Part shown: one piece after another, positions 3,230 to 21,106 of the stretch
Layout: each line of letters opens with the position of its first letter
Position numbering within the stretch: position 1 is the stretch's first letter
Virus record (IMG/VR): IMGVR_UViG_3300038825_000861
Coordinates: 1-23,957 of that record
Length of the DNA: 23,957 nt
From: a virus
Strand: one strand, 5' to 3'
Translations under genes and position numbers: made by a program
The notes under the pieces: generated by a model
Databases searched by the model: none
What the model saw: only the letters and a program-made list of their open reading frames with translations
Told to the model about the DNA's origin: nothing

Positions 3230-3711
3230 GTTTGCATGACGCACTGATTGAATCGCATTCGTGGGACGGTCACTGCAATCAAGCCGGTCTGGATATCATC
3301 AAGAAGTTTGAGGGATGGCGGTCAGAGCCATACCTCTGTGCTGCTTCAAGGCCAACAATCGGATGGGGTAGTTGCTGGGATGATGAGGGCAATCCTGTCA
3401 CCCTTGATCATCCTAGCATTACGAAGGAGCAAGGTGAATATCTCCTCAAGCGAGAAGTGCGCCACGTTGAGAACGCAGTTAGAGGCGTTGTCAAAACGCG
3501 TTTAAACGAGAACCAGTTTAGCGCCTGTTGCTCACTCGCCTACAACATTGGATCAGGAGCCTTCGCCCGATCCACTTTGAAAATGAAACTTTCGCGCAAT
3601 GATTTTGAAGGGGCGGCAGATGAGTTCCCAAAGTGGCGTCGAGCCGGGGGCCGCATCCTCAAGGGGCTTGTCATCCGCCGCGAGTATGAGCGAACTTTGT
3701 TCCTTCTCTAG
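3226..3711 (+). CDS. Endolysin, GH24 lysozyme (muramidase)
   Basis: 161 residues from ATG 3226, which overlaps the holin stop; the frame is open further upstream but that part lies within the holin gene. The catalytic triad is Glu29 (FEG), Cys38 (YLC) and Thr44 (TIGWG), spaced E-8-C-5-T as in ECT-type GH24 endolysins. 'NENQFSACCSLAYNIG' and C-terminal 'RREYERTLF' are further family motifs. It cleaves the MurNAc-GlcNAc bond. No signal-anchor sequence is seen, so release depends on the holin. The last 159 bases are antisense to a leftward gene. A GTTTAAAC site encodes the Leu-Asn of 'TRLNENQ'. Confidence 0.92.
   Translation: MSLHDALIESHSWDGHCNQAGLDIIKKFEGWRSEPYLCAASRPTIGWGSCWDDEGNPVTLDHPSITKEQGEYLLKREVRHVENAVRGVVKTRLNENQFSACCSLAYNIGSGAFARSTLKMKLSRNDFEGAADEFPKWRRAGGRILKGLVIRREYERTLFLL
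3500..3507. repeat. GTTTAAAC site 1
   Basis: In the endolysin gene, flanked c..g (CGTTTAAACG). Codons read CGT TTA AAC. Confidence 0.9.
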
Positions 3712-3891
3712 CTCCTCTAGCCGTGCGACAATCTTAGGGTTCTCCATTTTCGATTCAGCAAAATAACGAACACTCTTTGCCGTGGTCTTAGCTGACACAT
3801 TATAAGCCCTGCGGTATGCCTCATCAGCGTTTTTAGTCCTCATATACGCTTGGCAAAATGCTTCTTGTTTTGCGGTCAAAGTTTTTTTCAT
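3553..3891 (-). CDS. Terminase small subunit-like HTH protein (N-terminal domain only)
   Basis: 112 residues. Residues 4-62 ('LTAKQEAFCQAYMRTKNADE', 'AYRRAYNVSAKTTAK', 'NPKIVARLEELE') are a clear Terminase_2 (PF03592) N-terminal HTH, which recognises packaging sites. The usual central oligomerisation region is absent; the rest is a low-complexity tail antisense to the endolysin. A second protein at 16201 carries what looks like the missing half. It is the last gene of a leftward early operon (ATGA overlap with the LexA-like gene), an odd place for a packaging protein, so a regulatory role is also possible. Confidence 0.75.
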   Translation of the reverse strand: MKKTLTAKQEAFCQAYMRTKNADEAYRRAYNVSAKTTAKSVRYFAESKMENPKIVARLEELEKEQSSLILAADDKPLEDAAPGSTPLWELICRPFKIIARKFHFQSGSGEGS

Positions 3892-4130
3892 AACTCATGC
3901 CCTTTCATTTCAACAGGCACCACCAAAACGCTGCGCGGTTTTCCGTGTTCGCGTGTGATGTGGCCGCGATCCGCCAAGTCATTCATCATTCGCACAATGT
4001 TTGATTTGCATGTGCCTTGAATTGAAGCCAACTCAGCTACGCTGGGCGAGTAGCCATGCGCTTGTATAAATTCGTCAATCGCCATGCGGAGCGACATCTG
4101 TTTCGGCGTGATGCCCATTGGTACACTCAT
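3888..4130 (-). CDS. LexA-like winged-helix DNA-binding protein
   Basis: 80 residues. 'ITPKQMSLRMAIDEFIQAHG', 'YSPSVAELA', 'SNIVRMMNDLADRGHI' and 'KPRSVLV' follow the LexA N-terminal DNA-binding domain in order. The C-terminal S24 self-cleavage domain is absent, so it cannot self-cleave like LexA. It probably regulates phage transcription. It is ATGA-coupled to the genes on both sides. Its DNA target is unknown; it is one of three small DNA-binding proteins that could read the GTTTAAAC palindromes. Confidence 0.75.
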   Translation of the reverse strand: MSVPMGITPKQMSLRMAIDEFIQAHGYSPSVAELASIQGTCKSNIVRMMNDLADRGHITREHGKPRSVLVVPVEMKGHEL

Positions 4131-4933
4131 TTAATTGCTCCTAGCTGCGCGTTTAAACGTATGCGTTCGTCGTACAGAGTCTTTGCTGCGGCCTCTGGCA
4201 ACAGGTCCATGGTCGGTTCATTGTGTTCCTCGAAACGGTGCATGGCCGAAATTCTTTCCTCTGGACTTAGCTGCACATCACCCTTCATCCGTTCTAGCTG
4301 GCTCTTAAAAGCCTCGACAAACTCCAGGCTTGAACCAAATTCTGCGGTGTTCTTGCCATCTGGTGAGATCATAGTAAGAACATCGTCTGTATTGCTCTCA
4401 GATGCCCCAGGAGAAGCATCTGCCTTTTCTGGACCCTTGGCCCCAGGCGCATCAGTGTCGGCCTTCTGACCACCGTTTCCGGGGAAGGCAGCATCCAAAT
4501 CCTTACCAGATGGTTTAGCCTTGCGACTCTTTGGCCGCGAAGGTGGTTCATTGAGTTCGTTTCCGTCATCGTCCGTTTGCGCTAACCCAACCATAGCACA
4601 CACGCCGAATCTTCTAGCGTAAGAAATTGCACTGCCGGTGGCTTGCATTTTGTTCTTGGCGTTTTCGATACCGTCCAACGGCACACCCTGATCACAAATC
4701 CATTGACCAGATTTGTGGATCAGCGTGGTCCGTAGCTTGTTATCATGCACGCCTTGAATGATGCCAATGTCGTGGGCGTTCAGTGCTTGGTGTGCTTGCT
4801 TATTGCATTCCTGAAGTGATGCGTACATCGAGCCATGGAACGAGTTTTTAGAATCTTTGTGTGGGTTTGTCATATTTGCCTGGGCGGCTACGAACGCCGC
4901 GCCAAACTTATCAAGCTGTTCTGATTGGTTCAT
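4127..4933 (-). CDS. erf: ERF-family single-strand annealing protein
   Basis: 268 residues. The N-terminal 130 residues match the ERF family (PF04404): 'KNSFHGSMYASLQE', then 'GSAISYARRFGVCAMVGLAQ' followed by the acidic TDDDGNE. It anneals complementary strands during phage recombination and genome circularisation, working with the exonuclease at 5441. Residues 130-180 are a Pro/Lys/Gly-rich linker; the C-terminal part is charged and helical. The stop and start overlap neighbouring genes by ATGA. A GTTTAAAC site near the 3' end encodes 'RLN'. Confidence 0.9.
   Translation of the reverse strand: MNQSEQLDKFGAAFVAAQANMTNPHKDSKNSFHGSMYASLQECNKQAHQALNAHDIGIIQGVHDNKLRTTLIHKSGQWICDQGVPLDGIENAKNKMQATGSAISYARRFGVCAMVGLAQTDDDGNELNEPPSRPKSRKAKPSGKDLDAAFPGNGGQKADTDAPGAKGPEKADASPGASESNTDDVLTMISPDGKNTAEFGSSLEFVEAFKSQLERMKGDVQLSPEERISAMHRFEEHNEPTMDLLPEAAAKTLYDERIRLNAQLGAIK
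4151..4158. repeat. GTTTAAAC site 2
   Basis: Near the 3' end of erf, full CGTTTAAACG; read as Arg-Leu-Asn on the minus strand. Confidence 0.9.
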
Positions 4934-5148
4934 GTTGTCACCTTATGGAATGGGATTACGTTGTTGGATGCTTCGTATGCTGCACAGGTGCGTTTAAACG
5001 GCACGGCAGTCAGGTAAATGTTTTGCCGCTCTGCCGATTCGATGCACTTGTGGGATAGTTCAACGAGGCTATCAGGGAACAACTCAGGCCGGGATAGCAC
5101 CCGGCCCGCGTTGCGTAACTCACGCTTGATTGCTGTGCGATTGCTCAT
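4930..5148 (-). CDS. Small unknown protein between erf and a wHTH gene
   Basis: 72 residues, charged and mostly helical ('LVELSHKCIESAERQNIYLT'), with no recognised motif. Both ends overlap neighbours by ATGA, which makes translation convincing. Context suggests an accessory role in recombination or its control. A GTTTAAAC site falls in 'PFKR', read in a different frame from that used in erf. Confidence 0.7.
   Translation of the reverse strand: MSNRTAIKRELRNAGRVLSRPELFPDSLVELSHKCIESAERQNIYLTAVPFKRTCAAYEASNNVIPFHKVTT
4992..4999. repeat. GTTTAAAC site 3
   Basis: In the 72-residue gene, full CGTTTAAACG; read as (Pro)-Phe-Lys-Arg, a different frame from site 2. Confidence 0.9.
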
Positions 5149-5444
5149 CGCGCCACCATGACGCGTTGGTTCCGACCACTGCGCCCCTTGCGTTTGCCGT
5201 CAATGTTCACCAGCCCCTTGTCGATGAGCGCTTTGAACCGTGCCGTCACGCTGCTATAGGCCAGATCAGGCAACCGGCTTTGCACTTCATCGCTGATGCA
5301 GCCCGTGGTACCGAATGAGCGAATCGTATCAAACACCAATTTCTCCAGCTTCGTGCTGTCGATACTGTCCGCTGCTTCAAATGACGTTGGCGGGCTTTCG
5401 CGGCGCACCAACTTGTAGGGTTCCGTTCCAAAGAGATCGTTCAT
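5145..5444 (-). CDS. Winged-helix DNA-binding protein
   Basis: 99 residues. The segment 'FGTTGCISDEVQSRLPDLAY', 'SSVTARFKALIDKGLVNID', 'KRKGRSGRNQRVM' is a winged-helix fold: recognition helix around SVTARFKAL, basic wing GRSGR. Small phage proteins with the 'SSVTARFKAL' and 'RSGRxQRVM' pattern are common in early operons. It lies between exonuclease and annealing protein genes, so it could regulate the operon or organise DNA ends. It is coupled to both neighbours by ATGA overlaps. Confidence 0.75.
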   Translation of the reverse strand: MNDLFGTEPYKLVRRESPPTSFEAADSIDSTKLEKLVFDTIRSFGTTGCISDEVQSRLPDLAYSSVTARFKALIDKGLVNIDGKRKGRSGRNQRVMVAR

Positions 5445-6394
5445 GCGCCTTCTCCTTCCGGTTCAATAAGCTGGAACCGTCTGCCTGTGCGTGCGGGTTC
5501 CGCTTTCTTGACAGTGGTGCGTTCCGGCTTCGCCTTGTATTCCACAGTCGAGTGGAAGACTTTTATACCACCGGGTAGCAGCACCTTTTCCACGCCACCC
5601 ATGGCAGCTTTCAGCCGCATCTTGCATGACTCTTCAATAGACGCGGTGGATTCCTTTGTGTGATTGCACGCAACCAACGTTTCCGCTGCGTCGATCATGT
5701 CTTGGCGAGCGTCATTCATAATCAGTTCAGACGGCCCGTCAGTCAGGTCATGGATGCCCGGCTTGCGGTTGCCAGGGATCATGCTCGAATACTCGCTTTG
5801 TGTGATCGGCGGGTAGTTGGTGCCGTCTTCCATGTGCTGCCAGAAGACATTGACCGCTTCACGAATCGCCATGATGGTTGGTTCGTGTCGATGCACAATT
5901 GCGATTCGCCACTTACAATCGCTCTGTGCCAGTTCCGCAATCACACCAATGTCAGCGTCCGCGCAATCCAGTTGGGCTTGCACTTGGATGACACGCTCCA
6001 GGCTATCCGTAGGATCACCAGGAAAACGTGGCAGCTTCAATTCCCAGACTGATCCTTTGGGTATCGGTAGGTTTTCATACTCCCAATCGTCTTTGAAAAA
6101 CCCGTCGAGTGAGGCAACCAGATTGCAATGTTCGTTGCGGTATCCAGTTTTCGGGTGGTCTAACTCTACGACAAATTCATCTTGAAACCACTGCCGCGCT
6201 CCATCCTCGAAATAGTTTCCCCGCTTCATTATAGGCGTGGCTTTGTTCGTGTCTTCGCCATCGCGTGCGGCTCTGTGCCGGGCGAGCATGTCGTTGGGTG
6301 TGAGTTTAAACGGCGTTAGATACTCGCCGTTGATGGGTGTGATGATGGGCGCATCTGACGCGCCAGACTCCTGGCCGGTGATGCTATGCTTCAT
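5441..6394 (-). CDS. YqaJ/lambda-type phage exonuclease (PD-(D/E)XK)
   Basis: 317 residues from ATG 6394, chosen because it overlaps (ATGA) the stop of a small membrane ORF that has its own strong SD; an in-frame GTG at 6424 has none. The PD-(D/E)XK core is visible: 'GNYFEDGARQWF' (Glu63), 'ASLDGFF' (Asp97), 'WELKLP' (Glu118-x-Lys120), then 'IQVQAQLDC' (Gln137-Gln141). It resects DNA to 3' single strands for the ERF protein, a Red-like pair. The C-terminus (about 260-317) is basic. One GTTTAAAC site encodes 'PFKL' near the N-terminus. Confidence 0.88.
   Translation of the reverse strand: MKHSITGQESGASDAPIITPINGEYLTPFKLTPNDMLARHRAARDGEDTNKATPIMKRGNYFEDGARQWFQDEFVVELDHPKTGYRNEHCNLVASLDGFFKDDWEYENLPIPKGSVWELKLPRFPGDPTDSLERVIQVQAQLDCADADIGVIAELAQSDCKWRIAIVHRHEPTIMAIREAVNVFWQHMEDGTNYPPITQSEYSSMIPGNRKPGIHDLTDGPSELIMNDARQDMIDAAETLVACNHTKESTASIEESCKMRLKAAMGGVEKVLLPGGIKVFHSTVEYKAKPERTTVKKAEPARTGRRFQLIEPEGEGA
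6304..6311. repeat. GTTTAAAC site 4
   Basis: In the exonuclease gene, flanked a..g; read as Pro-Phe-Lys-Leu. Confidence 0.9.
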
Positions 6395-6486
6395 AGCACC
6401 AGCCCCCACAGGGACATCACCCACATGCTGCCAAACAGTAGTAGGACCGTGAGAAATTCGGCGGCGTAAGTAAGGTATTTTTTCAA
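6391..6486 (-). CDS. 31-residue membrane peptide upstream of the exonuclease
   Basis: A TTG start at 6486-6484 has a near-ideal AGGAGTG (complement of 6493-6499). The product begins with a basic MKKYL, followed by one long hydrophobic stretch ('FLTVLLLFGSMWVMSLWGLV') and a stop that overlaps the exonuclease ATG. It is below usual annotation length. Signal-anchor topology with N-terminus in is likely. It may be a toxin-like, superinfection-exclusion or regulatory peptide, or simply a coupling leader; nothing in it decides. Confidence 0.6.
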   Translation of the reverse strand: MKKYLTYAAEFLTVLLLFGSMWVMSLWGLVL

Positions 6487-6579
6487 CGTCTTCACTCCTT
6501 TTCTATTTATATTTTGTTTGTTGTTCTCTATTTCTGGCATCAACAACGTTCATAACAAGATCGTTTAGCGAATACAACA

Positions 6580-7431
6580 CTACTTTTTCGCCTGTGCAAT
6601 AATCCGCTTCACCTGTTCAGCGCTCCATTGCGGCAAATCTTCCTCGCGGATGTCCTCTAGCTTCTGCCGCTGTCGTTGCGCTTGATAGGTCAACACTGCC
6701 CGGCCTTCACCATGAAGACCGTTGCGGTTATTGAGTTCGCGGGCCAACGCACGCAATCCCGTAACCCCTTTTTTCTGTAGCTTTTCGATAATCGGGTAGG
6801 TCCGCAGGGCAAAGGCGCGGGTGTTACGCTTCATTGCTTCACCGCCGAGCGGTGACGCCTTCTCTACGTTGGGGTTGCCCAGGCGTATAATGCGCCGTGA
6901 AGGCTTATCCTTCTTAGGCCGGGTGTCGTAGTACCCTTTTTCCTGAAGGTCGGTCTTGGCGACGTTTAAACGGTCTTTGGTGTGCGCTTGAATGCGCTTC
7001 ACTTCTAGCTCCGCAACCGCCGCCATGATGCGCCAGATAAATTGTGTCTGATTCGGGTCCGACATTTCGGGAATGTCGCACGCGACTAGCTTAGTGCCGT
7101 CGCGTTCCGTTCTCCGCATGATGTAGCTCATCACGTCGAAGTTACGCGTTAGGCGTGTCAAGGCGCTGACGATCACAACGCCGGGCGGATCACACTTCGC
7201 TGCTGCATCCAAGGCGGCGATAAGCTGCGGCCTTTCGGGCTTGGTTCCCGATTCGACTTCCTTAAATATTTCGATCAGTTCCAGCCCAAGTTCTTCTGCC
7301 TTGGCGCGGATGGTTGCGTTCTGTGCCCGGATGCCAAGGCCATCAATGCCCTGTTCTTCCGTACTCACACGCGCAAGGCCGAATGCTTTTTCTGGTGGTC
7401 CGCTGCTGCGGGTTCGCTTCCGTTTAGCCAT
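6580..7431 (-). CDS. Serine recombinase (resolvase/invertase family)
   Basis: 283 residues from ATG 7431. The N-terminal catalytic domain has 'ARVSTEEQGIDGLGIRAQ' (nucleophile Ser23), 'SGTKPERPQL', 'LTRLTRN' (Arg93, Arg96) and 'AAVAELEVKRIQAHTKDRL'. After a Lys-rich linker, residues 215-283 ('TGLRALARELNNRNGLHG', 'WSAEQVKRII') resemble the Recombinase DNA-binding region. It is much shorter than large serine integrases, so it could be an integrase-like recombinase, a resolvase or an inverter. No crossover site was found beside it. GTTTAAAC encodes its 'DRLNVAK'. The start shares TGATG with the upstream stop. Confidence 0.87.
   Translation of the reverse strand: MAKRKRTRSSGPPEKAFGLARVSTEEQGIDGLGIRAQNATIRAKAEELGLELIEIFKEVESGTKPERPQLIAALDAAAKCDPPGVVIVSALTRLTRNFDVMSYIMRRTERDGTKLVACDIPEMSDPNQTQFIWRIMAAVAELEVKRIQAHTKDRLNVAKTDLQEKGYYDTRPKKDKPSRRIIRLGNPNVEKASPLGGEAMKRNTRAFALRTYPIIEKLQKKGVTGLRALARELNNRNGLHGEGRAVLTYQAQRQRQKLEDIREEDLPQWSAEQVKRIIAQAKK
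6964..6971. repeat. GTTTAAAC site 5
   Basis: In the serine recombinase gene, full CGTTTAAACG; read as Arg-Leu-Asn. Confidence 0.9.
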
Positions 7432-7441
7432 CACTCCCCCC
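7429..7441 (-). repeat. Coupled junction GGGGGGAGTGATG, copy 1
   Basis: One 13-base block supplies SD, stop (TGA) and start (ATG) between the 62-residue gene and the recombinase. Identical blocks occur at 7617-7629 and 7784-7796. Confidence 0.75.
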
Positions 7442-7619
7442 CCTTGGTTTCTTGGTCTGACAAAGCATCTGCCAGAGCCATCAACTCGGATCGCGTAAGC
7501 CGCATCAAATTCGGCAACGAGTGAGTGCTGTCCTTCGTTAGATCACGGACTAGCTCTCTGACATCGTCAGCCCAGTATTGTTTTTCACCAGACGTTTGCC
7601 AGTGGCTTCCCCTACGCAT
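7431..7619 (-). CDS. Small unknown protein upstream of the recombinase
   Basis: 62 residues from ATG 7619 (the GTG one codon earlier is less likely). It is charged; residues 18-56 are helical with 'LMRLTRSELMALADALS'. No family recognised. It starts and stops in nearly identical TGATG junctions preceded by GGGGGGAG, shared with the two genes upstream, so this block of four genes is translated as a coupled string. Confidence 0.65.
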   Translation of the reverse strand: MRRGSHWQTSGEKQYWADDVRELVRDLTKDSTHSLPNLMRLTRSELMALADALSDQETKGGE

Positions 7620-7629
7620 CACTCCCCCC
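7617..7629 (-). repeat. Coupled junction GGGGGGAGTGATG, copy 2
   Basis: Junction between the 55- and 62-residue genes. Upstream codons end in Gly-Glu as in the other copies. Confidence 0.75.
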
Positions 7630-7786
7630 TAGCGGCACGGTCAAGGTGCTTACAAAGCACTTGGACTTCTTTAAGCCGCTGCTCCATGCTTTCGATGTAG
7701 ACAATCGCTTGTCGGATGATCGGTTTGATTTTTTGGTATTCAGGATCAGATCGTATTTCGATCAGTTGTGCTTTTGTATCAGGCAT
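7619..7786 (-). CDS. 55-residue helical protein
   Basis: Complete frame from ATG 7786 to TGA 7619-7621, too short for many gene callers. The product starts MPDTKAQLIEIRSDPEYQK and continues as one amphipathic helix rich in Gln, Glu and Lys, ending 'HLDRAARGE'. A GGGGGGAG SD and TGATG overlaps at both ends support translation. The spacer between the neighbouring genes is exactly filled by it. Function unknown; a short coiled-coil adaptor is plausible. Confidence 0.65.
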   Translation of the reverse strand: MPDTKAQLIEIRSDPEYQKIKPIIRQAIVYIESMEQRLKEVQVLCKHLDRAARGE

Positions 7787-7796
7787 CACTCCCCCC
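7784..7796 (-). repeat. Coupled junction GGGGGGAGTGATG, copy 3
   Basis: Junction between the HTPGPW-family gene and the 55-residue gene. Confidence 0.75.
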
Positions 7797-8118
7797 TCGC
7801 TTTGGCGATTGCGGCTTGGATTTCGGAGTCCATTTCATCCAAAATTTTTAACGCCCAGCCGATGTCATTACGATTCCCGGTCTTAATTCGGCGAATTAAC
7901 TTGTCCCGCTTACGGTCAAATAATTCTAACGCCGCCAACAAATCAGGCGCGGCGGCTATCAACCGTTGATTTGCATAGCCTTCGTCAAGAGGATTTTTAC
8001 TGTAAATATGAGCGATGCCGCCACGCCCCTGCGCGAGCAGTTCTTTACTTGGTTCAATAGCTGCCGTTTGGTTGTCGGTATTGAATTTAACAACCCACGG
8101 TCCCGGTGTATGTGTCAT
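7786..8118 (-). CDS. Conserved phage protein, HTPGPW family
   Basis: 110 residues. The N-terminus 'MTHTPGPWVVKF' and central 'GYANQRLIAAAPDLLAALE' are hallmarks of a family found in hundreds of phages and prophages, function unknown. The C-terminal half adds a charged helix pair ('IGWALKILDEMDSEIQAAIA'). The start lies in a 27-base repeat also present at the gene starting at 8724, and the upstream mini-ORF stops on its ATG. Confidence 0.82.
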   Translation of the reverse strand: MTHTPGPWVVKFNTDNQTAAIEPSKELLAQGRGGIAHIYSKNPLDEGYANQRLIAAAPDLLAALELFDRKRDKLIRRIKTGNRNDIGWALKILDEMDSEIQAAIAKARGE

Positions 8119-8139
8119 AACTGACTCCCTTGCTTCATT
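8113..8139 (-). repeat. 27-base gene-start repeat, copy 1
   Basis: Holds SD GGGAGTCAG, ATGACA start and the upstream mini-frame MKQGSQL-stop. 26 of 27 bases match copy 2 at 8719-8745. Confidence 0.8.
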
Positions 8140-8168
8140 GCTTCCGTTTCGCTAAACAGAGCCATCAT
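8115..8168 (-). CDS. Possible 17-residue leader peptide
   Basis: ATG 8168 follows GGAGTCAG and reads MMALFSETEAMKQGSQL, stopping on the ATGA of the HTPGPW gene. The last seven codons (MKQGSQL) lie in the 27-base repeat and are mirrored as MKQRSQL before the gene at 8724. It may be only a translational-coupling leader. There is no independent evidence that the peptide itself works. Confidence 0.3.
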   Translation of the reverse strand: MMALFSETEAMKQGSQL

Positions 8169-8201
8169 TGCTGACTCCAATTAGCACATGGTGATACAAG
8201 C

Positions 8202-8240: not shown

Positions 8241-8468
8241 TTAGTCGATGCGCTTTGCGTCCGCGCCGTTGCAGCCGTTGCCGTCCTGCGTGTGCGCGTT
8301 AACCTCGCCGTTCGTTTCTGTATCAACAACGAATCCAATGGCACCCTTCCATAGTGGCATGGTGCGGATGGCATCGACGGCGGTTTGAGCGTGAACAATT
8401 TCACACGTCTCGCGGTGCGGTGTGACGTTTAAACAGTACGTCTTAAGTTCGTATTTATTCATCGCCAT
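8241..8468 (-). CDS. Small unknown phage protein
   Basis: 75 residues. 'YELKTYCLNVTPHRETCEIV' and 'AVDAIRTMPLWKGAIGFVVD' suggest a small alpha/beta fold. GGGGAGGA lies 8 bases before ATG 8468; ATG 8462 is an alternative. It follows the gene at 8473 by four bases, so the two are likely co-translated. No family recognised. It ends just before a strong GC hairpin (8202-8233). GTTTAAAC encodes 'CLN'. Confidence 0.7.
   Translation of the reverse strand: MAMNKYELKTYCLNVTPHRETCEIVHAQTAVDAIRTMPLWKGAIGFVVDTETNGEVNAHTQDGNGCNGADAKRID
8427..8434. repeat. GTTTAAAC site 6
   Basis: In the gene at 8241, flanked c..a; read as Cys-Leu-Asn. Confidence 0.9.
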
Positions 8469-9225: not shown

Positions 9226-9233
9226 GTTTAAAC
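9226..9233. repeat. GTTTAAAC site 7
   Basis: Intergenic, upstream of the gene at 9133. Part of CGCGATGTTTAAACGC, shared exactly with site 8. Confidence 0.9.
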
Positions 9234-10072: not shown

Positions 10073-10119
10073 GCCCCGCGCTGGTGGTCGGGGCAATGCG
10101 GCGCTAGTGCGCGATGGGG
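10073..10119 (-). repeat. Intergenic stem-loop module, copy A
   Basis: Stem GCCCCG/CGGGGC (10073-10078, 10089-10094) next to the palindromic GCGCTAGTGCGC (10101-10112) and GATGGGG. In leftward order it is: stop, GCGC motif, hairpin, SD, next gene. TTT follows the hairpin leftward, so weak termination is possible. Confidence 0.75.
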
Positions 10120-10359: not shown

Positions 10360-10407
10360 CCCCGGCCACCTTGCGGCTCCGGGGCTGGGCGCTAGTGCGC
10401 GATGGGG
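10360..10407 (-). repeat. Intergenic stem-loop module, copy B
   Basis: Stem CCCCGG/CCGGGG (10360-10365, 10379-10384) with GCGCTAGTGCGC at 10389-10400 followed by GATGGGG. The GCGCTAGTGCGCGATGGGG block is identical to copy A although the hairpin loop differs. It lies between the genes at 10416-10601 and 10126-10329. Confidence 0.75.
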
Positions 10408-10631: not shown

Positions 10632-10680
10632 GGCCCCGCCATCCTTTCGGACCGGGGCCAAGGGGCGCTGCTGCGCGATG
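10632..10680 (-). repeat. Intergenic stem-loop module, copy C
   Basis: Stem GGCCCCG/CGGGGCC (10632-10638, 10653-10659) with the variant GCGCTGCTGCGC (10665-10676), then GATG running directly into GTTTAAAC (10680). It lies between the SprT-like gene and the gene at 10601. Confidence 0.75.
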
Positions 10681-10690: not shown

Positions 10691-11275
10691 TTATCCGATA
10701 GTCATCATGCTACCGCAGCCGCACGTCGGGATTCCCGCATCACCTATCGCGGTCCGTGATCCGCGTAGGATGCACCCGCATTGATCGTCCAGGCATACGA
10801 TCTTAATCATGCGCGTGGTCTGTTTCTTGCGGTCCTGCAAATTGATTTTCGCGTGGGGGTACGGGCCAAGCGCTTGCGATATCTTTTCAAGCTTCACGGT
10901 CAATTCAGGGCCGCTTGTGGTAGCGGTCATTTTGCCTTCAAGGCCAATGGCGAGCGCCATGGTGCGGAACGGACCACGGTGTCCGTTCTCGCAATCGTCA
11001 ATGGCGTGGATCATCTCATGTGCGACGATGCCCAGCACTTCCAGCGGATCGTCTTCCGCCGGACTGATGAACATTTCGCGTGTCGCGTCATCAGATGAAC
11101 CGGACGGCCAGCATTCGCCAATGCGCTTACGAGCGCTGCCGCCGCCCGGCCATGAACAGGCAATGCGCCAGGAAGCGTTTAAACGGTCTATGCCGGCGGG
11201 TTCAAATACGTCGGCATTCAGCATGTTGACGGCGGCGGTCAACCATTCGTCGCGGGTTGCATATGTGTTTGTCAT
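10691..11275 (-). CDS. SprT-like zinc metallopeptidase domain protein
   Basis: 194 residues from ATG 11275, which overlaps the upstream stop (TAATG); the longer frame to 11443 is not needed. The active site is 'VAHEMIHAIDDCENGHRGPF': His86, Glu87, His90 and third ligand His99. A C-terminal zinc ribbon is formed by Cys161, Cys166/168 and Cys185/187. 'IGLEGKMTATT' is typical of phage SprT-like proteins. SprT/Spartan proteins cleave DNA-bound proteins; here it may process host or phage DNA-protein complexes. GTTTAAAC encodes 'DRLNA'. Confidence 0.83.
   Translation of the reverse strand: MTNTYATRDEWLTAAVNMLNADVFEPAGIDRLNASWRIACSWPGGGSARKRIGECWPSGSSDDATREMFISPAEDDPLEVLGIVAHEMIHAIDDCENGHRGPFRTMALAIGLEGKMTATTSGPELTVKLEKISQALGPYPHAKINLQDRKKQTTRMIKIVCLDDQCGCILRGSRTAIGDAGIPTCGCGSMMTIG
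11177..11184. repeat. GTTTAAAC site 9
   Basis: In the SprT-like gene, full CGTTTAAACG; read as Arg-Leu-Asn. Confidence 0.9.
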
Positions 11276-11547
11276 TAGTCGCACCCCACACAAAGCATGA
11301 ACATGAAGAAAAGCATCATTGTGGATGAAACCAGCCACAGGATGGCATGGCTCATTGCATCGAAGATGAAACCGCCCATAACGAAAGGCGCGACGGTCAG
11401 ACCGCAGAATAGCAGCGTGGTGACGATGTACGCCGCCAAGCACAAGTCGCGATCAGCGCCTTGTAATGCGCGTCTGGCGTGAGGGTGAATGGGTGCGGGA
11501 CGTTTGGTGCCGCGTAGCCGCTCAAGGCTTCGTGATGTGTAGCTCAT
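11275..11547 (-). CDS. Small two-TM membrane protein
   Basis: 90 residues from ATG 11547 with AGGAGTCAG upstream; homology of this initiation module with that of the gene at 12009 supports the start. A basic N-terminus (1-32) is followed by two membrane segments (about 36-60 and 64-88, 'ILWLVSSTMMLFFMFMLC'). A positive-inside rule suggests both ends in the cytoplasm. It may modify the host envelope, for example in superinfection exclusion. That is inference from its early position. Confidence 0.65.
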   Translation of the reverse strand: MSYTSRSLERLRGTKRPAPIHPHARRALQGADRDLCLAAYIVTTLLFCGLTVAPFVMGGFIFDAMSHAILWLVSSTMMLFFMFMLCVGCD

Positions 11548-11580: not shown

Positions 11581-11620
11581 ATGCCGGGCGGATAATCCCC
11601 GGCATCCGGCGCTAGTGCGC
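11581..11620 (-). repeat. Intergenic stem-loop module, copy D
   Basis: Stem ATGCCGGG/CCCGGCAT (8 bp) with GCGCTAGTGCGC at 11609-11620; the GATGGGG part is replaced by AATTG. It lies between the gene at 11634 and the membrane protein gene at 11547. Confidence 0.75.
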
Positions 11621-11633
11621 AATTGTGTTTGGG

Positions 11634-12122: not shown

Positions 12123-13115
12123 ATGACAGATGAACCCGTGATAGGTGCCGCACAAGGCGGGCCGCCTTCATTATATACACGCATCCCAACGCGAGTGATT
12201 TGGGAGAGCAAGGGAACGCGTGGTAAGGGGAAAGGATTCACGCCGGGTGAATTGCGCCAGTTCGCTATGTTGTGCGCTTATGCGAATAACCAGGGATTCG
12301 CGTATCCGAACCAGCAAACAATAGCTGACGTGGCGAACACAGATCGTGGGTGCGTGCAACGTATGATCTCGAAGGCAAAACGCCTTGGCTATATAGAGAG
12401 AGTGTCAGTCTATAGAGATCACCCGGCATGGCGTCATGTTATGGGAGCCGTATGGCGCATCATATATGACAGCCGATTGACGCAGGATGATTTGATCGAC
12501 GATCTTAACAAGAATGATCCGGTCCCTATTATAGAAGACGATCTGCCCGCGCCGGAAATCACGGCGGGCCAGGACTCTAGTAAGCACGGGATGGAAGGGG
12601 ATGGGTTGTCACTAGTTGATGCTCATTCATTAGCGCATTGGTATGTGCATCAAGTGACCGCCACAACAGGCGAGGTCCGCATAGTAAATGAGCGCGCCAT
12701 CGATGACGCCAGCCAATGCCTGGACATTGAAGGCAGCAAAGCGGCAGCGATAGCGGCCCTATCAGAATGCCGCAAGGCTAAATGGTCAAATGGATTTGTG
12801 ACAGATGATAAAAAAGATCAGCAATTACAATGGCTTGACCCACCCTTTGCCCCCCCGGCCCCGCCGGCCATGTATAGGGGGTCTCACAAAAATATTTCGG
12901 AGTTTTTCATGCTAACCGCCGCAACCCGCGCAATCAAAGCGCTTCCAGAGAGCCAGCGACTACCCGTTGCAATAGCCCTTCTCGTTCACTTTGCGGGCCT
13001 TACAGCACGCATGGACAAGCTTATCAGCGCTGGATATGCGCGAAAGCAACCTGATCGTGAGGAGTTCGACATAGCCGAATTGATACGAGCCACAGCGGAG
13101 GAGTGTAATGACTAG
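12123..13115 (+). CDS. HTH replication-initiator-like protein
   Basis: 330 residues. Residues 40-95 ('FTPGELRQFAMLCAYANNQG', 'FAYPNQQTIADVANTDRGCV', 'QRMISKAKRLGYIERV') form a winged helix-turn-helix of the HTH_36 type used by phage and plasmid replication initiators. A Pro-rich linker (about 240-252) leads to a helical C-terminal part. As first gene rightward of the divergent region, followed by RusA, DUF1376 and helicase-loader-like genes, an origin-binding or regulatory role is likely. ATG 12123 has only GAGTCAG upstream. No origin iterons were recognised. Confidence 0.75.
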   Translation: MTDEPVIGAAQGGPPSLYTRIPTRVIWESKGTRGKGKGFTPGELRQFAMLCAYANNQGFAYPNQQTIADVANTDRGCVQRMISKAKRLGYIERVSVYRDHPAWRHVMGAVWRIIYDSRLTQDDLIDDLNKNDPVPIIEDDLPAPEITAGQDSSKHGMEGDGLSLVDAHSLAHWYVHQVTATTGEVRIVNERAIDDASQCLDIEGSKAAAIAALSECRKAKWSNGFVTDDKKDQQLQWLDPPFAPPAPPAMYRGSHKNISEFFMLTAATRAIKALPESQRLPVAIALLVHFAGLTARMDKLISAGYARKQPDREEFDIAELIRATAEECND

Positions 13116-13308
13116 CTTTCACCAGACAACGGTGCGTTTACCTGACGATTTACGCGCAGCATTGAAGGCGCAAGCCGCTTTGGAGCGCAGATCGATGGGT
13201 AACTTGATTATCGACCTGTGCGTGAACGGGTTAAAGGTCCGCGAGGAATCGAATGAGGACCGTTTAAACCAGTTCAAGCGGCTTATTCGAGCAACGGGGC
13301 AAATATGA
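13108..13308 (+). CDS. Arc-like ribbon-helix-helix DNA-binding protein
   Basis: 66 residues. 'TTVRLPDDLRAALKAQAALE', 'RRSMGNLIIDLCVNGL' is a textbook Arc/MetJ ribbon-helix-helix: beta strand TTVRLP, two helices with RSMGN turn. RHH dimers bind short palindromes in the major groove, so this is a candidate reader of GTTTAAAC. One such site lies in its own gene, encoding 'DRLNQ'. It overlaps the preceding gene by 8 bases and the next by 4. Confidence 0.82.
   Translation: MTSFHQTTVRLPDDLRAALKAQAALERRSMGNLIIDLCVNGLKVREESNEDRLNQFKRLIRATGQI
13262..13269. repeat. GTTTAAAC site 10
   Basis: In the RHH gene near its 3' end, flanked c..c; read as Arg-Leu-Asn. Confidence 0.9.
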
Positions 13309-16201: not shown

Positions 16202-16638
16202 TGTCTGGCAGCCCAAGCCCAACAGGTCGATTCGGTGGTGTGCGGAAACTTGAAGACCGGTTGAAAGGCCGGTCCCAAGTTATCGCCCAGAACAAGGAAG
16301 GTGTAGCGCAAGCGTTGATCGATATAGCGCGGGCTAACATTACGGATGTACTAAGTTGGGATGCGGAAGGCAACGTGAAGGTGAAGGCAAGTGCCGACAT
16401 ACCGGACAACGTAGCCAGTGCCATCAAAAAGATTCGCGTGTCGAAATCGGAGAATGGCGAGCCATCGTTAGAGTTGGAAATGCACGACAAGATTAGCGTC
16501 TTGCGCGTGCTGGCAAAGAGCGCGGGGCTTCTGGAGCAACACAAAGCAGATGTGAACACGCCTAGCGTTGTCGGCATTACGATGGTTGGGCCAGAGGTTA
16601 CGCAAGTTCAAGAACAACAGGAAAAAGTCGCGGAATGA
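16201..16638 (+). CDS. Terminase small subunit-like protein lacking the HTH
   Basis: 145 residues. Residues 38-112 ('LIDIARANITDVLSWDAEGN', 'NVASAIKKIRVSKSENGEPS', 'MHDKISVLRVLAKSAGLLE') match the central/C-terminal part of Terminase_2 small subunits. The expected N-terminal HTH ('LTxKQ...NATxAAxRAGY') is missing; a basic 35-residue stretch replaces it. A protein at 3553-3891 has just that HTH. Its position directly before the large terminase is standard, and it should form the ring that feeds DNA to TerL. Confidence 0.72.
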   Translation: MSGSPSPTGRFGGVRKLEDRLKGRSQVIAQNKEGVAQALIDIARANITDVLSWDAEGNVKVKASADIPDNVASAIKKIRVSKSENGEPSLELEMHDKISVLRVLAKSAGLLEQHKADVNTPSVVGITMVGPEVTQVQEQQEKVAE

Positions 16639-16651
16639 GCCGCGATAACGG

Positions 16652-16699
16652 GGATGAGGGGTTTTAACTTTAAGGTAGGTCTTGGGTTGCCCCTCATCC
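16652..16699. repeat. 10-bp inverted repeat in front of terL
   Basis: GGATGAGGGG (16652-16661) and CCCCTCATCC (16690-16699) are perfect complements around a 28-base loop. They fill the only spacer between the terminase genes. Candidate packaging (pac/cos) element or translational control hairpin for terL; no U-tract, so not a typical terminator. Confidence 0.6.
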
Positions 16700-16713
16700 T
16701 TATGAATTGAGAT

Positions 16714-18240
16714 ATGAATAATATTGAAGCTGCAAATCTAAACTTAGATTTCTCGACGGCACCGACTGTCTGGAAGTTTCTACGCGATGATAGTTTCGTG
16801 CGTGGGATCATGGGACCAGTGGGCAGCGGCAAAAGTTACGCTTGTGCTGCGGAGATCATGCTGCGGGCCGTCAGGCAAAAGCCTAGCCCCCGTGATGGCA
16901 TCCGTTACACGCGATTCGCCGTGGTCCGAAACAGTTACCCGATGCTGAAGACAACGACACTGAAAACGTGGATGGAGATTTTTCCAGAGAACATCTGGGG
17001 AAACGCGCACTGGTCGCCACCTATCACGCATCACATCAAGTTGCCGTCCCGTGGTGACGCGCATGGTGTGGATTGCGAAGTTATATTTTTGGCTCTCGAC
17101 CAGCCCAAGGATGTGCGGAAGTTACTTAGCCTTGAATTGACCGGCGCTTGGATCAACGAGTGCCGCGAGTTACCTAAGGCAATTATTGATGGCCTGTCGC
17201 ACCGTGTCGGCAGATACCCGACACAAGCGGATGGCGGAGCAACGTGGCGGGGGATATGGGCCGATACCAACCCTATGGATTCAGATCATTACTGGTACAG
17301 GCTGGCGGAAGGCAAGGAAGCGCCGGGCGGAAAGTTTGCGTGGCAGTTTTTCCGGCAACCACCGGGCGTTCTGGAAACGTCGAGCGATAACTTGCCTGAC
17401 CAGCCCGAGTTTAACGGCTTTGTGCAGAGCGCGGGCAAGTGGTGGATGACCAACCCAACAGCGGAAAACATTCACAATCTACCTGACGGTTACTATGAAC
17501 AGCTTGTCGGCGGCAAAAACCTTGATTGGATTCGCTGTTACGCGAAAGGCGAATACACATACGTTCAAGAAGGCAAGAGCATTACACCCGAATACGATGA
17601 TGACCTGATGACGGTAGACGGGTTGCAGTACGATCCAAGTCTGCCGGTGCAGATCGGTTTAGATTTTGGACTAACGCCCGCCGCGTGTTTCGGTCAGCGC
17701 CACCCGTCCGGGCAATGGCGCATACTGCATGAACTGGTGACGTTTGATATGGGCCTGGAAAGGTTTTGCAACAGCCTCAAGGCTGAATTGGAAATGATGT
17801 TTCCAAAAGCAGAAGTGATGATATGGGGCGATCCAGCCGGTCAACAGCGCGATCAGATTTATGAAGTGACCGCGTTTGATTTCTTGAAGACCATTGGCAT
17901 GTTAGCGCGGCCCGCCGCAACGAACGATTGGAAGACACGGCGCGAAGCTATGGCGGCACCGATGATCCGGTTTATTGACAAGAAACCCGGCTTGCTTGTG
18001 GACAAAAAATGCAACCGTACTCGTAAGGCGCTGGCTGGCGGGTATCATTTTAGCCGTGTCAGTATGGGCAGCGGTCAAGAGCGGTTCCGCGATGTGCCGA
18101 ATAAGAACGAACACAGCCATATTGGTGATGCGTATGGTTATTTGGTTCTAGGTGGTGGTGAGCATAAGCGCATGACCAGACGCCCGGCGACGTGGGCAAA
18201 GCTGCCGGTTGCAAATAGTGATTTCAATGTCTTTGCTTGA
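16714..18240 (+). CDS. terL: Terminase large subunit (packaging ATPase/nuclease)
   Basis: 508 residues. ATPase: Walker A GPVGSGKS (34-41), coupling/Walker B region 'LELTGAWINECRE' with Glu149. RNase H-like nuclease: Asp317 (IGLDFG), Asp373 (IWGDPAG), Asp472 (HIGDAYGY), the three metal ligands. It pumps DNA into the prohead and cuts concatemers. A 10-bp inverted repeat occupies the 75-base spacer before its ATG. The last bases overlap the gp13-like gene. Confidence 0.93.
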   Translation: MNNIEAANLNLDFSTAPTVWKFLRDDSFVRGIMGPVGSGKSYACAAEIMLRAVRQKPSPRDGIRYTRFAVVRNSYPMLKTTTLKTWMEIFPENIWGNAHWSPPITHHIKLPSRGDAHGVDCEVIFLALDQPKDVRKLLSLELTGAWINECRELPKAIIDGLSHRVGRYPTQADGGATWRGIWADTNPMDSDHYWYRLAEGKEAPGGKFAWQFFRQPPGVLETSSDNLPDQPEFNGFVQSAGKWWMTNPTAENIHNLPDGYYEQLVGGKNLDWIRCYAKGEYTYVQEGKSITPEYDDDLMTVDGLQYDPSLPVQIGLDFGLTPAACFGQRHPSGQWRILHELVTFDMGLERFCNSLKAELEMMFPKAEVMIWGDPAGQQRDQIYEVTAFDFLKTIGMLARPAATNDWKTRREAMAAPMIRFIDKKPGLLVDKKCNRTRKALAGGYHFSRVSMGSGQERFRDVPNKNEHSHIGDAYGYLVLGGGEHKRMTRRPATWAKLPVANSDFNVFA

Positions 18241-18823
18241 AGACATAGAGCGTTTAAACGAACACGTTAAGATTAAACCGCCGCACAAAATCATAGATTT
18301 TGAACCGGCCTTGGTGCCGATGTTGAAACCAAGGGGCACGGATCAGTTGTATTTCGATCATATCCCCAATTTTACACAAGTTTTAGAGAGCTACGCGCAG
18401 ATTGGCTACGCGCATATGGGCGTATGCCATGGCAAGCCGATGTGTATGTTTGGGTGCGTTCCCTTGTGGGCTGGGGTTGCGGAGCTATGGATGATTACCG
18501 ATGTCAATTTGGGATCATCTGCACGCACGTTTCACCGTGTTACTAAAGAAATGTTCGACATTTATATGTCAGAGTTATCTCTGGTTCGCATACAAATCTG
18601 GGTTCATTCACAAAATGAACGGGCTATCAAGTGGGCAAAGTCTTTGTATTTTGAGGAAGAAGGCATTGCTCGGAAGTTTGGACCGGATGGTGCAGATTTT
18701 TATTTGTTAGCGAGGTTTAAAAATGGGCGGACTAGTAACCGGACTATTTTCGACTCCAGAGGTAGCAACTGCGCTACCGGGGCCAGACCCAGAGATGGAG
18801 CGCGCACAGCGGGAGCAAGATGA
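18227..18823 (+). CDS. T7 gp13-like (DUF2833) acyltransferase-fold virion protein
   Basis: 198 residues from ATG 18227 (TTG 18209 also in frame), overlapping the terL end by 14 bases. 'MGVCHGKPMCMFGCVPLWAG', 'VAELWMITD', 'HSQNERAIKWAKSLYFEEEG' follow the GNAT-like fold of T7 gp13/DUF2833 proteins, encoded between packaging and connector genes in many podoviruses. They are internal or assembly proteins; enzymatic activity is unproven. The last 34 residues overlap the next gene and look unconserved (Arg/Gly-rich). A GTTTAAAC site sits 25 bases into the gene ('ERLNE'). Confidence 0.75.
   Translation: MSLLEDIERLNEHVKIKPPHKIIDFEPALVPMLKPRGTDQLYFDHIPNFTQVLESYAQIGYAHMGVCHGKPMCMFGCVPLWAGVAELWMITDVNLGSSARTFHRVTKEMFDIYMSELSLVRIQIWVHSQNERAIKWAKSLYFEEEGIARKFGPDGADFYLLARFKNGRTSNRTIFDSRGSNCATGARPRDGARTAGAR
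18252..18259. repeat. GTTTAAAC site 12
   Basis: At codons 9-11 of the gp13-like gene, full CGTTTAAACG; read as Arg-Leu-Asn. Confidence 0.9.
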
Positions 18824-19001
18824 GCGGCTGGAAGCTAGAGAGCGCCAAAATCAAAAAGAGTTAGCATCGCGTAAACGCGCACGGCGAACAGGCGGAAACA
18901 GGTTGCTTTTGGCAAACCGTGACAATCCGTTTATGGGCGTGCCACCGCAACAAACGCTTGGCCCAACCTATAGCCGCTCAAGGGCCGGAATAAACGTCTG
19001 A
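18723..19001 (+). CDS. Small charged virion-assembly protein
   Basis: 92 residues. 'MGGLVTGLF' start, a long charged helix ('RAQREQDERLEARERQNQKE'), then 'RRTGGNRLLLANRDNPFMG' are typical of a small protein encoded just before the connector in T7-like and marine podoviruses; role unknown. It overlaps the gp13-like frame by 101 bases, and its last base is the first of the connector ATG. The spacing before the ATG is AT-rich (GGTTTAAAA). Confidence 0.72.
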   Translation: MGGLVTGLFSTPEVATALPGPDPEMERAQREQDERLEARERQNQKELASRKRARRTGGNRLLLANRDNPFMGVPPQQTLGPTYSRSRAGINV

Positions 19002-20566
19002 TGAAGATGTCGGCGGGCATGTTGACCAAGCGGTATAACGCTGCTTGGTCACGAAAAGAGAATTGGCGCAATCTCTATGAGCAGTGCTATCAGTATGCTT
19101 TGCCGCAACGCAACCTCTATGATGGCTATTGGGAAGACGGTCAATCCGGGCGTGTAAAGAACCTACAGGTTTTTGATTCTACTGCCGTCCATGGCGTACA
19201 GCGTTTTGCTAACCGCTTACAATCGGGTTTATTCCCGCCTGATAAAAGCTGGATGGAGTTGTTTCCTGGCACTGACATTCCGCCAGAAAGCCAGCAAGAA
19301 GTTCGCCAGGGCTTGCAAGTTATTTCGCAAAAGTTCTTTAGCATTTTGCGGCAGACCAATTTCGATCTTGCCATGGGCGAGTTTCTTTTAGACCTAAGTG
19401 TCGGTACCGGGATCATGCTTGTGCAACCCGGAGATGATTTACAACCGATACGGTTTCAGTCAATTCCGCAATACCTCGTAGCGCTTGAGGAAGGCCCGCA
19501 AGGCACTGTTGAGAACGTGTACCGCAAGATGCGCGTTGCAGCGGAAAACATTAAAGTGATTTGGCCTGACGCAAATCTACCCGCTGTTCTTGAAAGAAAG
19601 ATCGTAGACGCACCGCAAGAAATGATAAACTTGCAAGAGTCTACTATCCTCAACGTCAATGATGGCGGATATGGATATTACGTTTGTTATAAATCTAGCG
19701 ACAACGAATCGTCCATGTTGGTCTACCGTGAACTGACAATATCACCGTGGATCGTTTCAAGATTTAGTAAGGTTGCCGGTGAGGTTATGGGCAGAGGCCC
19801 GGTTGTTTCTGCGCTTGGTGACATATTGACGTTAAACAAAGCTGTGGAGTTGTTGCTTAAAAACGCCAGTCTCAACATTAGCGGCGTTTACACGGCTGTA
19901 GACGATGGTGTTCTCAACCCGCAGACGATCCGTATTGTGCCGGGTGCCGTCATTCCTGTGGCGTCGAACGGCGGTGCGCGGGGATCATCCTTGCAACCGT
20001 TGCAACGCGCTGGCGATCTACAATTGACACAGATTGTTTTGCAAGATTTACGCATGAACATTAAGCGCACGCTGCTTGATGACTCGCTGCCGCCTGACAA
20101 CATGAGCGCCCGCAGCGCTACCGAAATTGTGGAACGGATGCGTGAGCTTGCAACTAACTTGGGGTCAGCTTTCGGCAGATTGATAACGGAAACCATGGTG
20201 CCGTTAGTCCGCCGGTCAATGTACATTATGAACGAGGCGGGCTTAATTGCATTACCGTTGCGGGTGAACGGGCTAGAGGTGCGTGTCGTTCCGGTTAGCC
20301 CGTTAGCCAAAGCCCAACACTTGGATGACATTCAAGACGCCATGCAGTGGGCGCAGATTAGTTCGAGCCTTGGCCCGATAGCGCAAAGCACGATCAAAGC
20401 AGATGCGGTTGCCGACTATGTTGCAGACAAGCTGGGCGTGCCGACAAGTCTGCGGACCAGCGATGAGGAACGCCAAGAAGTTGAACAACAAATGATGCAG
20501 ATGATGCAGCAATCTCAAGGGGGACAAGCCCCGCCTGAGCAAGCTGCGCCGGAACAACCTGTTTAA
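19001..20566 (+). CDS. Portal / head-tail connector protein, T7 gp8 type
   Basis: 521 residues. 'QVFDSTAVHGVQRFANRLQS', 'GLFPPDKSWMELFPG', 'YRELTISPWIVSRFSKVAGE', 'MGRGPVVSALGDILTLNKAV' and 'SARSATEIVERMRE' are diagnostic of Head-tail_con (PF12236). It forms the dodecameric portal for packaging and tail attachment, and places the phage among podoviruses. The C-terminus is Gln/Met- and Pro-rich (about 490-521). Its TAA stop lies inside a GTTTAAAC site, and GAGGAG after the stop serves the next gene. Confidence 0.93.
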   Translation: MKMSAGMLTKRYNAAWSRKENWRNLYEQCYQYALPQRNLYDGYWEDGQSGRVKNLQVFDSTAVHGVQRFANRLQSGLFPPDKSWMELFPGTDIPPESQQEVRQGLQVISQKFFSILRQTNFDLAMGEFLLDLSVGTGIMLVQPGDDLQPIRFQSIPQYLVALEEGPQGTVENVYRKMRVAAENIKVIWPDANLPAVLERKIVDAPQEMINLQESTILNVNDGGYGYYVCYKSSDNESSMLVYRELTISPWIVSRFSKVAGEVMGRGPVVSALGDILTLNKAVELLLKNASLNISGVYTAVDDGVLNPQTIRIVPGAVIPVASNGGARGSSLQPLQRAGDLQLTQIVLQDLRMNIKRTLLDDSLPPDNMSARSATEIVERMRELATNLGSAFGRLITETMVPLVRRSMYIMNEAGLIALPLRVNGLEVRVVPVSPLAKAQHLDDIQDAMQWAQISSSLGPIAQSTIKADAVADYVADKLGVPTSLRTSDEERQEVEQQMMQMMQQSQGGQAPPEQAAPEQPV

Positions 20567-20568
20567 AC
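20561..20568. repeat. GTTTAAAC site 13
   Basis: Contains the last codon (Val) and TAA stop of the portal gene; flanked t..g. Confidence 0.9.
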
Positions 20569-20580
20569 GAGGAGATTGGT

Positions 20581-20703
20581 ATGCCAAGCGTTGGTGGAAA
20601 AAAATTTAGTTACGGCAAAAAAGGCATGGCGGCGGCGAAGAAAGCTAGCGCCAAGTCAGGCAAGCCAATGAAAATGGCGAAGCCGCGTAAAGGTAAAAAG
20701 TAA
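20581..20703 (+). CDS. 40-residue Lys-rich basic protein
   Basis: ATG 20581 follows GAGGAG (20569-20574), and the stop shares TAATG with the next gene. Starts MPSVGGKKFSYGKKGMAAAK; about one third of residues are Lys, with no acidic residues. Similar tiny basic proteins occur after the portal in many podoviruses. It may bind DNA or the inner capsid. It is the first of three such genes in a row. Confidence 0.72.
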   Translation: MPSVGGKKFSYGKKGMAAAKKASAKSGKPMKMAKPRKGKK

Positions 20704-20954
20704 TGGCAACGCCAGCGAAAGGGAAGGCGCGTGTCAAAGTAACAAGCAGTGGCAAGCGTGTTTCCTACGGTCAAGCTGGCAAAGCTAAAGGTGGCGGGCC
20801 GCGTGTTCGTCCTGGCACATCGAAGGGCAATGCTTATTGCGCCCGTAGTGCAGGGCAAATGAAGAAGCATCCATCCGCAGCAAAAAATCCTAACAGTCCA
20901 TTACGTCTGTCGCGCAAACGCTGGAAATGTTCTGGCAAAACATCAAGGAAATAG
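20703..20954 (+). CDS. 83-residue basic conserved podovirus protein
   Basis: The C-terminal block 'SKGNAYCARSAGQMKKHPSA', 'AKNPNSPLRLSRKRWKCSGK' is strongly conserved in podoviruses; two Cys residues (46 and 76) flank it. Very basic, lacking acidic residues. It is coupled by TAATG to the previous gene. The invariant NPNSPLRLSRKRWKC motif suggests a structural role, possibly nucleic-acid binding; function is not known. Confidence 0.8.
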   Translation: MATPAKGKARVKVTSSGKRVSYGQAGKAKGGGPRVRPGTSKGNAYCARSAGQMKKHPSAAKNPNSPLRLSRKRWKCSGKTSRK

Positions 20955-20956
20955 GT

Positions 20957-21106
20957 ATGGCGAAGCCCGGTTTATATTCTAACATTCATAAGAAGCGAGC
21001 CAGGATTAAGGCCGGTTCTGGTGAGCGCATGAGAAAACCCGGCAGTAAAGGAGCGCCAACTGCAAAGGCGTTTAAACGTTCCGCTAAAACTGCAAAGAAA
21101 AAGTAA
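20957..21106 (+). CDS. 49-residue basic conserved podovirus protein
   Basis: Sequence begins MAKPGLYSNIHKKRARIKAG and continues 'SGERMRKPGSKGAPTAKAFK'. The 'GLYxNIxxKRxRIxAGSGExM' and 'KPGSKGAPT' motifs are conserved in a tiny protein encoded before the scaffold in many T7-like and marine podoviruses. Function unknown. AGG stands 3 bases before the ATG; TAATG couples it to the next gene. GTTTAAAC encodes 'AFKR'. Confidence 0.8.
   Translation: MAKPGLYSNIHKKRARIKAGSGERMRKPGSKGAPTAKAFKRSAKTAKKK
21070..21077. repeat. GTTTAAAC site 14
   Basis: In the 49-residue basic gene, full CGTTTAAACG; read as Phe-Lys-Arg. No further copy to the right edge. Confidence 0.9.

Follow-up and report, generated by a model that had tools for sequence, protein, structure and literature searches.

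Examples of one regulator having numerous sites across a phage or plasmid are P1 C1 and KorB of plasmid RK2; these differ from the system described here in their folds and their longer sites, and each is known in one element family. In cluster A mycobacteriophages such as L5 and Bxb1, a few tens of short dispersed sites, the stoperators, lie mostly off promoters and are read by one phage protein (PMC6550527), and cyanobacteria carry many exact copies of an octamer palindrome, HIP1 (GCGATCGC), whose purpose is unknown (PMC4390886). Here we describe another such repeat, the palindromic octamer GTTTAAAC, in a 24-kb virus record (IMGVR_UViG_3300038825_000861; 23,957 nucleotides, analysed whole and called the window below), together with a gene for a SprT-like protein that accompanies it in unrelated phages and some plasmids. 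Like stoperators, GTTTAAAC is dispersed over the phage genome (14 copies in 24 kb, and 17 and 18 in two relatives), and like HIP1 it is an exact, highly iterated octamer palindrome. Stoperators, however, are asymmetric 13-bp sites aligned with transcription, vary in motif from one related phage to the next and are read by an immunity repressor, whereas GTTTAAAC is perfectly palindromic, is identical in unrelated phages and plasmids, and has a SprT-like zincin that bears a zinc ribbon as its candidate reader. HIP1 is abundant in host chromosomes and is associated with orphan methyltransferases; GTTTAAAC is abundant in mobile elements (on the cellular side our survey covers 289 alphaproteobacterial genomes only) and is associated with the SprT-like gene, whereas the MT-A70 methylase gene does not track it. 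A sequence-only reading of the window had proposed a palindromic, L5-like system of dispersed sites read by a phage protein. The general idea fits; the likeness to L5 does not hold, since the sites here are palindromes and keep one motif between relatives, and neither do the readers it named. We found no description of the octamer/SprT-like pairing in the open-access papers searched.

The window holds 14 exact copies of GTTTAAAC, against 0.39 expected from a trinucleotide Markov model and a mean of 0.34 (maximum 2) in 100 dinucleotide shuffles. These values reproduce the roughly 0.4 copies estimated in the sequence-only reading, whose 14 site coordinates are all exact and whose seven 10-mers are confirmed as CGTTTAAACG. 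The ranking of 8-mers with a Markov model that it proposed puts GTTTAAAC first among all 8-mers of the window, and other palindromic octamers have at most three copies each. It had also placed sites in genes of both strands, in at least two reading frames, across a stop codon and between genes, and this stands: 12 of the 14 are gene-internal, in the phase that reads Arg/Cys/Gly-Leu-Asn or the one that reads Phe-Lys, one lies across the portal stop codon, and one is intergenic, directly past the SprT-like gene. TTA, a rare Leu codon, is used in eight of the nine 'xGT-Leu-AAC' contexts, and the base at position -1 of the octamer is mostly C in the window family (the window and two relatives) and C or T in other lineages. 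When the window is pooled with two nearly complete relatives, G002 (34.8 kb, 17 copies) and G005 (35.5 kb, 18 copies), the exact copies total 49 (1.7 expected), and all one-mismatch variants of the same three genomes sum to 41 vs. 40.8 expected. The enrichment is all-or-none, and it is sharper than that of a degenerate operator set because exact copies are far above expectation and one-mismatch variants are at chance. That most window sites are gene-internal could speak for codon or composition bias, or for chance, but with model and shuffle expectations below 0.4, variants at chance, use of either permitted phase and of a rare Leu codon, and conservation beyond the background 8-mer rate (see below), this explanation is refuted and keeps practically no probability. 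Programmed frameshifting at the TTTAAAC slippery heptamer was likewise rejected, as the sites are found on either strand, in several phases and also outside genes.

The window encodes ERF and YqaJ/RecE-like recombination proteins, a replication initiator, a terminase, and a T7-like portal and capsid, the gene set of a podovirus akin to Methylophilales phage MEP301, which has no copy of GTTTAAAC. Positional conservation in related phages, a check raised by the sequence-only reading, is directly observed: G002 retains 9 of 11 alignable window sites and G005 11 of 12, against a retention of 48% for 8-mers in general, and L133, which is more distant, retains 3 of 4, against a background of 14.5%. 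This holds where DNA identity between the relatives is only 62–79%. Sites turn over by point change, as at 13262, where the relatives carry a synonymous Leu change. The stretches 1–3499 and beyond 21077, earlier described as free of sites, are so in the 24-kb fragment only; in the two longer relatives, the structural region missing from the window also has sites. The window sites are the following.

3500..3507: site 1, in the endolysin gene; kept in G002, G005, L130 and L132, gone in L133/L134
4151..4158: site 2, 3' end of the ERF gene; kept in six relatives including L133/L134, at a local identity of 66–68%
4992..4999: site 3; kept in six relatives including L133/L134
6304..6311: site 4, YqaJ/RecE-like exonuclease gene; kept in six relatives including L133/L134
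6964..6971: site 5, serine recombinase gene; exact GTTTAAAC, compared with relatives
8427..8434: site 6; exact GTTTAAAC, relatives not alignable here
9226..9233: site 7; kept in G005 and L132
10680..10687: site 8, directly past the SprT-like stop codon; similar placement in G002 (23608) and Venkman (457)
11177..11184: site 9, in the SprT-like gene (5' part); kept in G002, G005 and L132
13262..13269: site 10, in the ribbon-helix-helix (RHH) gene; GTCTGAAC in relatives, a synonymous Leu codon
15495..15502: site 11; GTTTGAAC in G002, synonymous
18252..18259: site 12; exact GTTTAAAC, compared with relatives
20561..20568: site 13, across the portal stop codon
21070..21077: site 14; exact GTTTAAAC, compared with relatives

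By sequence comparison, the gene that tracks these sites is the SprT-like gene at 10691-11275, which the sequence-only reading had not named. We scanned viral contigs for two GTTTAAAC copies 130–160 bp apart, blind to genes; among the matches listed, many unrelated contigs are octamer-dense throughout, with up to 4 copies per kb and a G+C content from 0.33 to above 0.5. Eighteen dense contigs, compared protein against protein, form several groups that have few or no genes in common with the window, except the 194-residue family of 10691-11275. A hidden Markov model (HMM) profile finds this gene in 10 of 11 whole-fetched pattern-found contigs of at least 30 kb, G396 being the exception, and in 0 of 17 relatives without enrichment (including MEP301). 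Within the family of the window, G002, G005 and L132 have the gene (open reading frame 10691-11443), and all relatives without enrichment lack it; terminase is ~84% identical in relatives without the octamer. Starting from the gene alone, the tie is again directly observed: 80 gene-selected loci hold 302 copies vs. 15.0 expected (p<1e-3 in 33 of the 80), and GTTTAAAC is the top palindrome in the majority of the enriched loci. Control loci outside the clade and without the SprT-like gene show no such excess, with 9 copies vs. 8.6 expected in 74 terminase-family loci and 4 vs. 2.26 in 13 MT-A70 loci.

The gene-bearing records include Methylophilales phage Venkman (34 copies vs. 1.67 expected), Dinoroseobacter phage R26L (20 in 79.5 kb; 14 vs. 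0.01 in the first 50 kb), Pseudanabaena phage Pan1 (16 in 72 kb; 10 vs. 0.01 in 47 kb), Burkholderia phage Mica (7 vs. 0.10), Magnetospira plasmid MGMAQ_p (18 vs. 0.39), Sphingobium plasmid pPDL2 (5 vs. 0.06) and, as a weaker case, E. coli phage HeidiAbel_Bas97 (6 vs. 0.66); the reversed octamer has 0–1 copies in each. Enterobacter phage Arya has seven copies, a raw count without model expectation. The hosts span Methylophilales, Rhodobacterales, Sphingomonadales and E. coli, plus a recorded cyanobacterial host. Some site-bearing phages, such as Bas97 and Mica, are temperate by annotation, and others have no recognised integrase. Because the unrelated contigs found by the octamer share essentially only its gene with the window, we favour the SprT-like protein as the reader, and we infer that it probably binds the octamer directly.

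The readers proposed earlier fare less well. Homologues of the RHH protein (13108), 42–62% identical, occur in relatives without enrichment, several of them with the same predicted beta-strand contacts; the residues, which we take by homology to Arc to be those touching DNA, are unchanged in the closest relatives without sites. The LexA-like protein (3888) is not common to unrelated site-dense phages, apart from one weak match in G363, and the winged helix-turn-helix protein (5145) is confined to the clade of the window. An HIP1-like or methyltransferase-linked repeat read by the orphan MT-A70 protein (13846) would account for the all-or-none behaviour of an 8-bp palindrome, in parallel with HIP1 and its methyltransferases (PMC4390886), in a window that carries such a gene. 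However, MT-A70 is kept at 69–73% identity in G007, G012, G014 and G041 without enrichment, the MT-A70 control loci hold 4 copies vs. 2.26 expected, and no octamer-rich host chromosome was found among those sampled, making this explanation very improbable. A host HIP-like repeat was rejected on the same survey, in which the highest density among 289 alphaproteobacterial genomes is 0.043 per kb vs. 0.5 in the phage. A serine recombinase target was rejected as well, the gene being retained in site-less relatives and in MEP301.

The gene has the following parts.

10691..11275, minus strand: SprT-like gene (phrog_6361), 194 residues; proposed GTTTAAAC reader, the one gene common to unrelated site-dense elements
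10868..11275, minus strand: SprT/Spartan-like zincin domain, residues 1–136; from the AlphaFold model (mean predicted local distance difference test score 92.9) and alignment
residues 86–90: HEMIH zincin residues, with H99 as the probable third ligand; from alignment
10697..10813, minus strand: C-terminal KKQxTRM segment and zinc ribbon, residues 155–193; candidate DNA-reading part

The product matches phrog_6361, a family of unknown function; many phage and plasmid genomes list its members as 'hypothetical', 'SprT-like protease' or 'transcription elongation protein'. The AlphaFold model is confident and two-part, with a zincin domain (HEMIH and a third histidine) followed by a small zinc-ribbon-like domain. 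HEMIH 86–90 and H99 are near-invariant in the family alignment, and KKQ-x-TR(M/L)-x-K and the CxxC that follows it are conserved. An intact first CxxC knuckle goes with enrichment (46 of 52 vs. 11 of 27, uncorrected for relatedness), whereas presence of HExxH does not track it; only G354 and G363, both site-dense, lack HExxH. From these counts, which point to the C-terminal part, we infer a candidate DNA-reading domain there, and G354 and G363, whose ribbons have diverged as well, show no more than that the catalytic centre is dispensable. The zincin core with its third histidine and the zinc-binding part behind it resemble SPRTN/SprT proteases. Reading of a base sequence is not known for SPRTN; unlike SPRTN, the phage gene goes with a fixed octamer, and two of its members lack HExxH. 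Another parallel is ArdC of plasmid R388, a mobile-element DNA-binding antirestriction protein with a Spartan-like zincin whose protease centre is dispensable for antirestriction (PMC7213743). ArdC, however, has an N-terminal non-specific single-stranded DNA-binding domain and no zinc ribbon, whereas here the zincin is N-terminal and the ribbon follows; no dispersed octamer is reported for ArdC.

As SPRTN-type proteases act on DNA-bound proteins (PMC5127644 and PMC5128726), some other factor, such as a conserved host DNA-binding protein, could instead read the octamer, with the SprT-like protein acting on that factor or on its crosslinks; sequence comparison alone cannot separate a reader from its partner. 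We consider this unlikely, given the wide host range, the lack of comparable enrichment in the 289 alphaproteobacterial genomes, the persistence of sites in the two genomes whose homologue lost HExxH, and the link of enrichment to the first ribbon knuckle.

Several results weigh against a SprT-like reader. On the protein side, the window protein scores 13.3 bits and its best homologue 22.2 against Pfam SprT-like PF10263, below the cut-off of 25.6; fold matches are weak (best PDB fold E=0.014, minimal zincin and CapP); and in G354 and G363 the ribbon has diverged too, the first CxxC of G354 also being lost. A PDB sequence search gave nothing useful, and NCBIfam and PADLOC searches returned no named family. 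On the side of the gene, many actinophage relatives carry it without sites, as do Bordetella FP1, Pseudomonas Epa5, Microbacterium Franklin22 and the plasmids pBN5 and P. viciae, all with 0 copies, and seven longer chromosomal phrog_6361 matches (Alphaproteobacteria) have essentially no nearby sites. Gene-bearing members without sites belong mostly to one actinophage clade, and the site label clusters on the protein tree (16 changes vs. 29.9 in shuffles, to which near-copies contribute). On the side of the sites, the gene is found in 29 of 72 enriched pattern-found loci as fetched, for which short fragments may be the explanation; L130, L133, L134 and L179 are fragments with sites that do not span the gene position. 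The profile finds no SprT match in the dense 36-kb G396, nor in the shorter G373, G374 and L182. G396 has 28 copies of GTTTAAAC, and GTGTAAAC/GTTTACAC are enriched in it too (8 and 7 copies vs. ~0.3); it is either an incomplete contig or has a different reader. L264 and L289 (6.8 kb each) carry tandem GTTTAAAC arrays with periods of 16–17 bp and 29 bp, unlike the dispersed layout elsewhere. A switch of specificity in SprT clades without sites was considered and rejected, as no convincing replacement motif emerged; TTGCGCAA in some actinophages is a weak lead. In Microbacterium phage Caron (L342) it occurs at 19473, 35655, 37997 and 38802 (4 vs. 0.06 expected), once ~65 bp upstream of the SprT-like gene and once just upstream of the serine integrase, possibly as the operator of another regulator.

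The placement of the sites bears on what a SprT-like reader might do with them. Around the gene in 32 gene-selected loci, the gene itself holds 25 sites vs. 13.6 expected, and its flanks of 150 bp hold 11 vs. 3.1 upstream and 13 vs. 3.3 downstream, and Bas97, Arya and Mica each have one site ~15–20 bp before the SprT-like start codon. Four annotated records have an intergenic excess of 41 vs. 8.6. Venkman, G354, G357 and G364 have their sites clustered in part of the genome, and the relatives of the window have theirs clustered in the early region. All three patterns would suit dispersed operators or elongation roadblocks, stoperator-like sites at which the SprT-like protein times or silences expression. 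Such transcriptional control is the main rival to protection and a tentative possibility. It is opposed by the even genome-wide spacing in the related phages R26L and Pan1 (coefficients of variation 0.36 and 0.34; P<0.001 and 0.0013), by sites inside terminase and other structural genes of Bas97 and Mica and the tape measure gene of Bas97, and by convergent gaps holding sites as well as divergent ones; the intergenic excess may only reflect freedom from coding constraint, which alone also predicts it.

We favour protection of the element's own DNA, put forward because of the Spartan-like core and the ArdC parallel, as a role that is conceivable rather than probable. The candidate site would be GTTTAAAC, weakly extended to YGTTTAAACR, and the protein would bind it symmetrically through the KKQ-x-TR(M/L)-x-K segment and the C-terminal zinc ribbon. 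DNA-level selection would maintain dispersed sites throughout the element, both within genes and between them, and the additional sites in and near the gene for the protein itself would act in an autoregulation-like manner. The protein would then coat or mark the element's DNA at many places, as a Spartan-type protease tethered along it where HExxH is intact and as a bare binding protein where it is lost, so that host restriction, silencing or crosslinked proteins would be kept off mobile DNA. Taken loosely, as a SprT-like protein that binds GTTTAAAC and marks its own DNA, this proposal is reasonably likely. In its full form, a one-gene module shared by unrelated phages and some plasmids, in which a SprT-like zinc-ribbon protein reads the octamer, so that the element is self-marked by sequence and host proteins are cleared or blocked, it remains doubtful.

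Other repeats occur in these genomes. A GGCGCTAGTGCGC-type repeat lies between small early genes of the window (10087-10116, 10375-10404, 10653-10680 and 11595-11624), one copy adjoining the GTTTAAAC site at 10680, and is possibly a promoter or terminator element. CTGACTCC, at 8121, 8171, 8727, 9137, 11552 and 12014, reads GGAGTCAG on the coding strand ahead of early-gene start codons; GGAGTCAG is enriched in G002 and G005 too and is probably an extended ribosome-binding motif. A 37-bp direct repeat (22245-22281 and 22967-23003, 92% identical) bounds a segment of ~700 bp with a reverse open reading frame (22370-22729, 119 residues), which looks like an inserted cassette because it is missing at the equivalent place in G002 and G005. 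Relatives of the window carry tandem palindromic repeats with a period of ~16–33 bp, at one locus per relative and different in each, in several cases near MT-A70 or replication genes:

G007: 22498-22550
G009: 2483-2550
G012: contig ends
G014: 12746-12840
G041: 2906-2980
G023: 7339-7490

As single-locus arrays, these were rejected as analogues of GTTTAAAC; they are probably origin iterons.

If the SprT-like protein does read the octamer, its family would gain a DNA target readable from sequence, and each element would come with a predicted binding map. The same DNA word would then have been selected in parallel in unrelated mobile elements with very different hosts and base compositions, which would point to a so far undescribed means by which mobile DNA marks or controls itself. 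Bas97, a laboratory E. coli phage with both the gene and the sites, makes the question directly testable.

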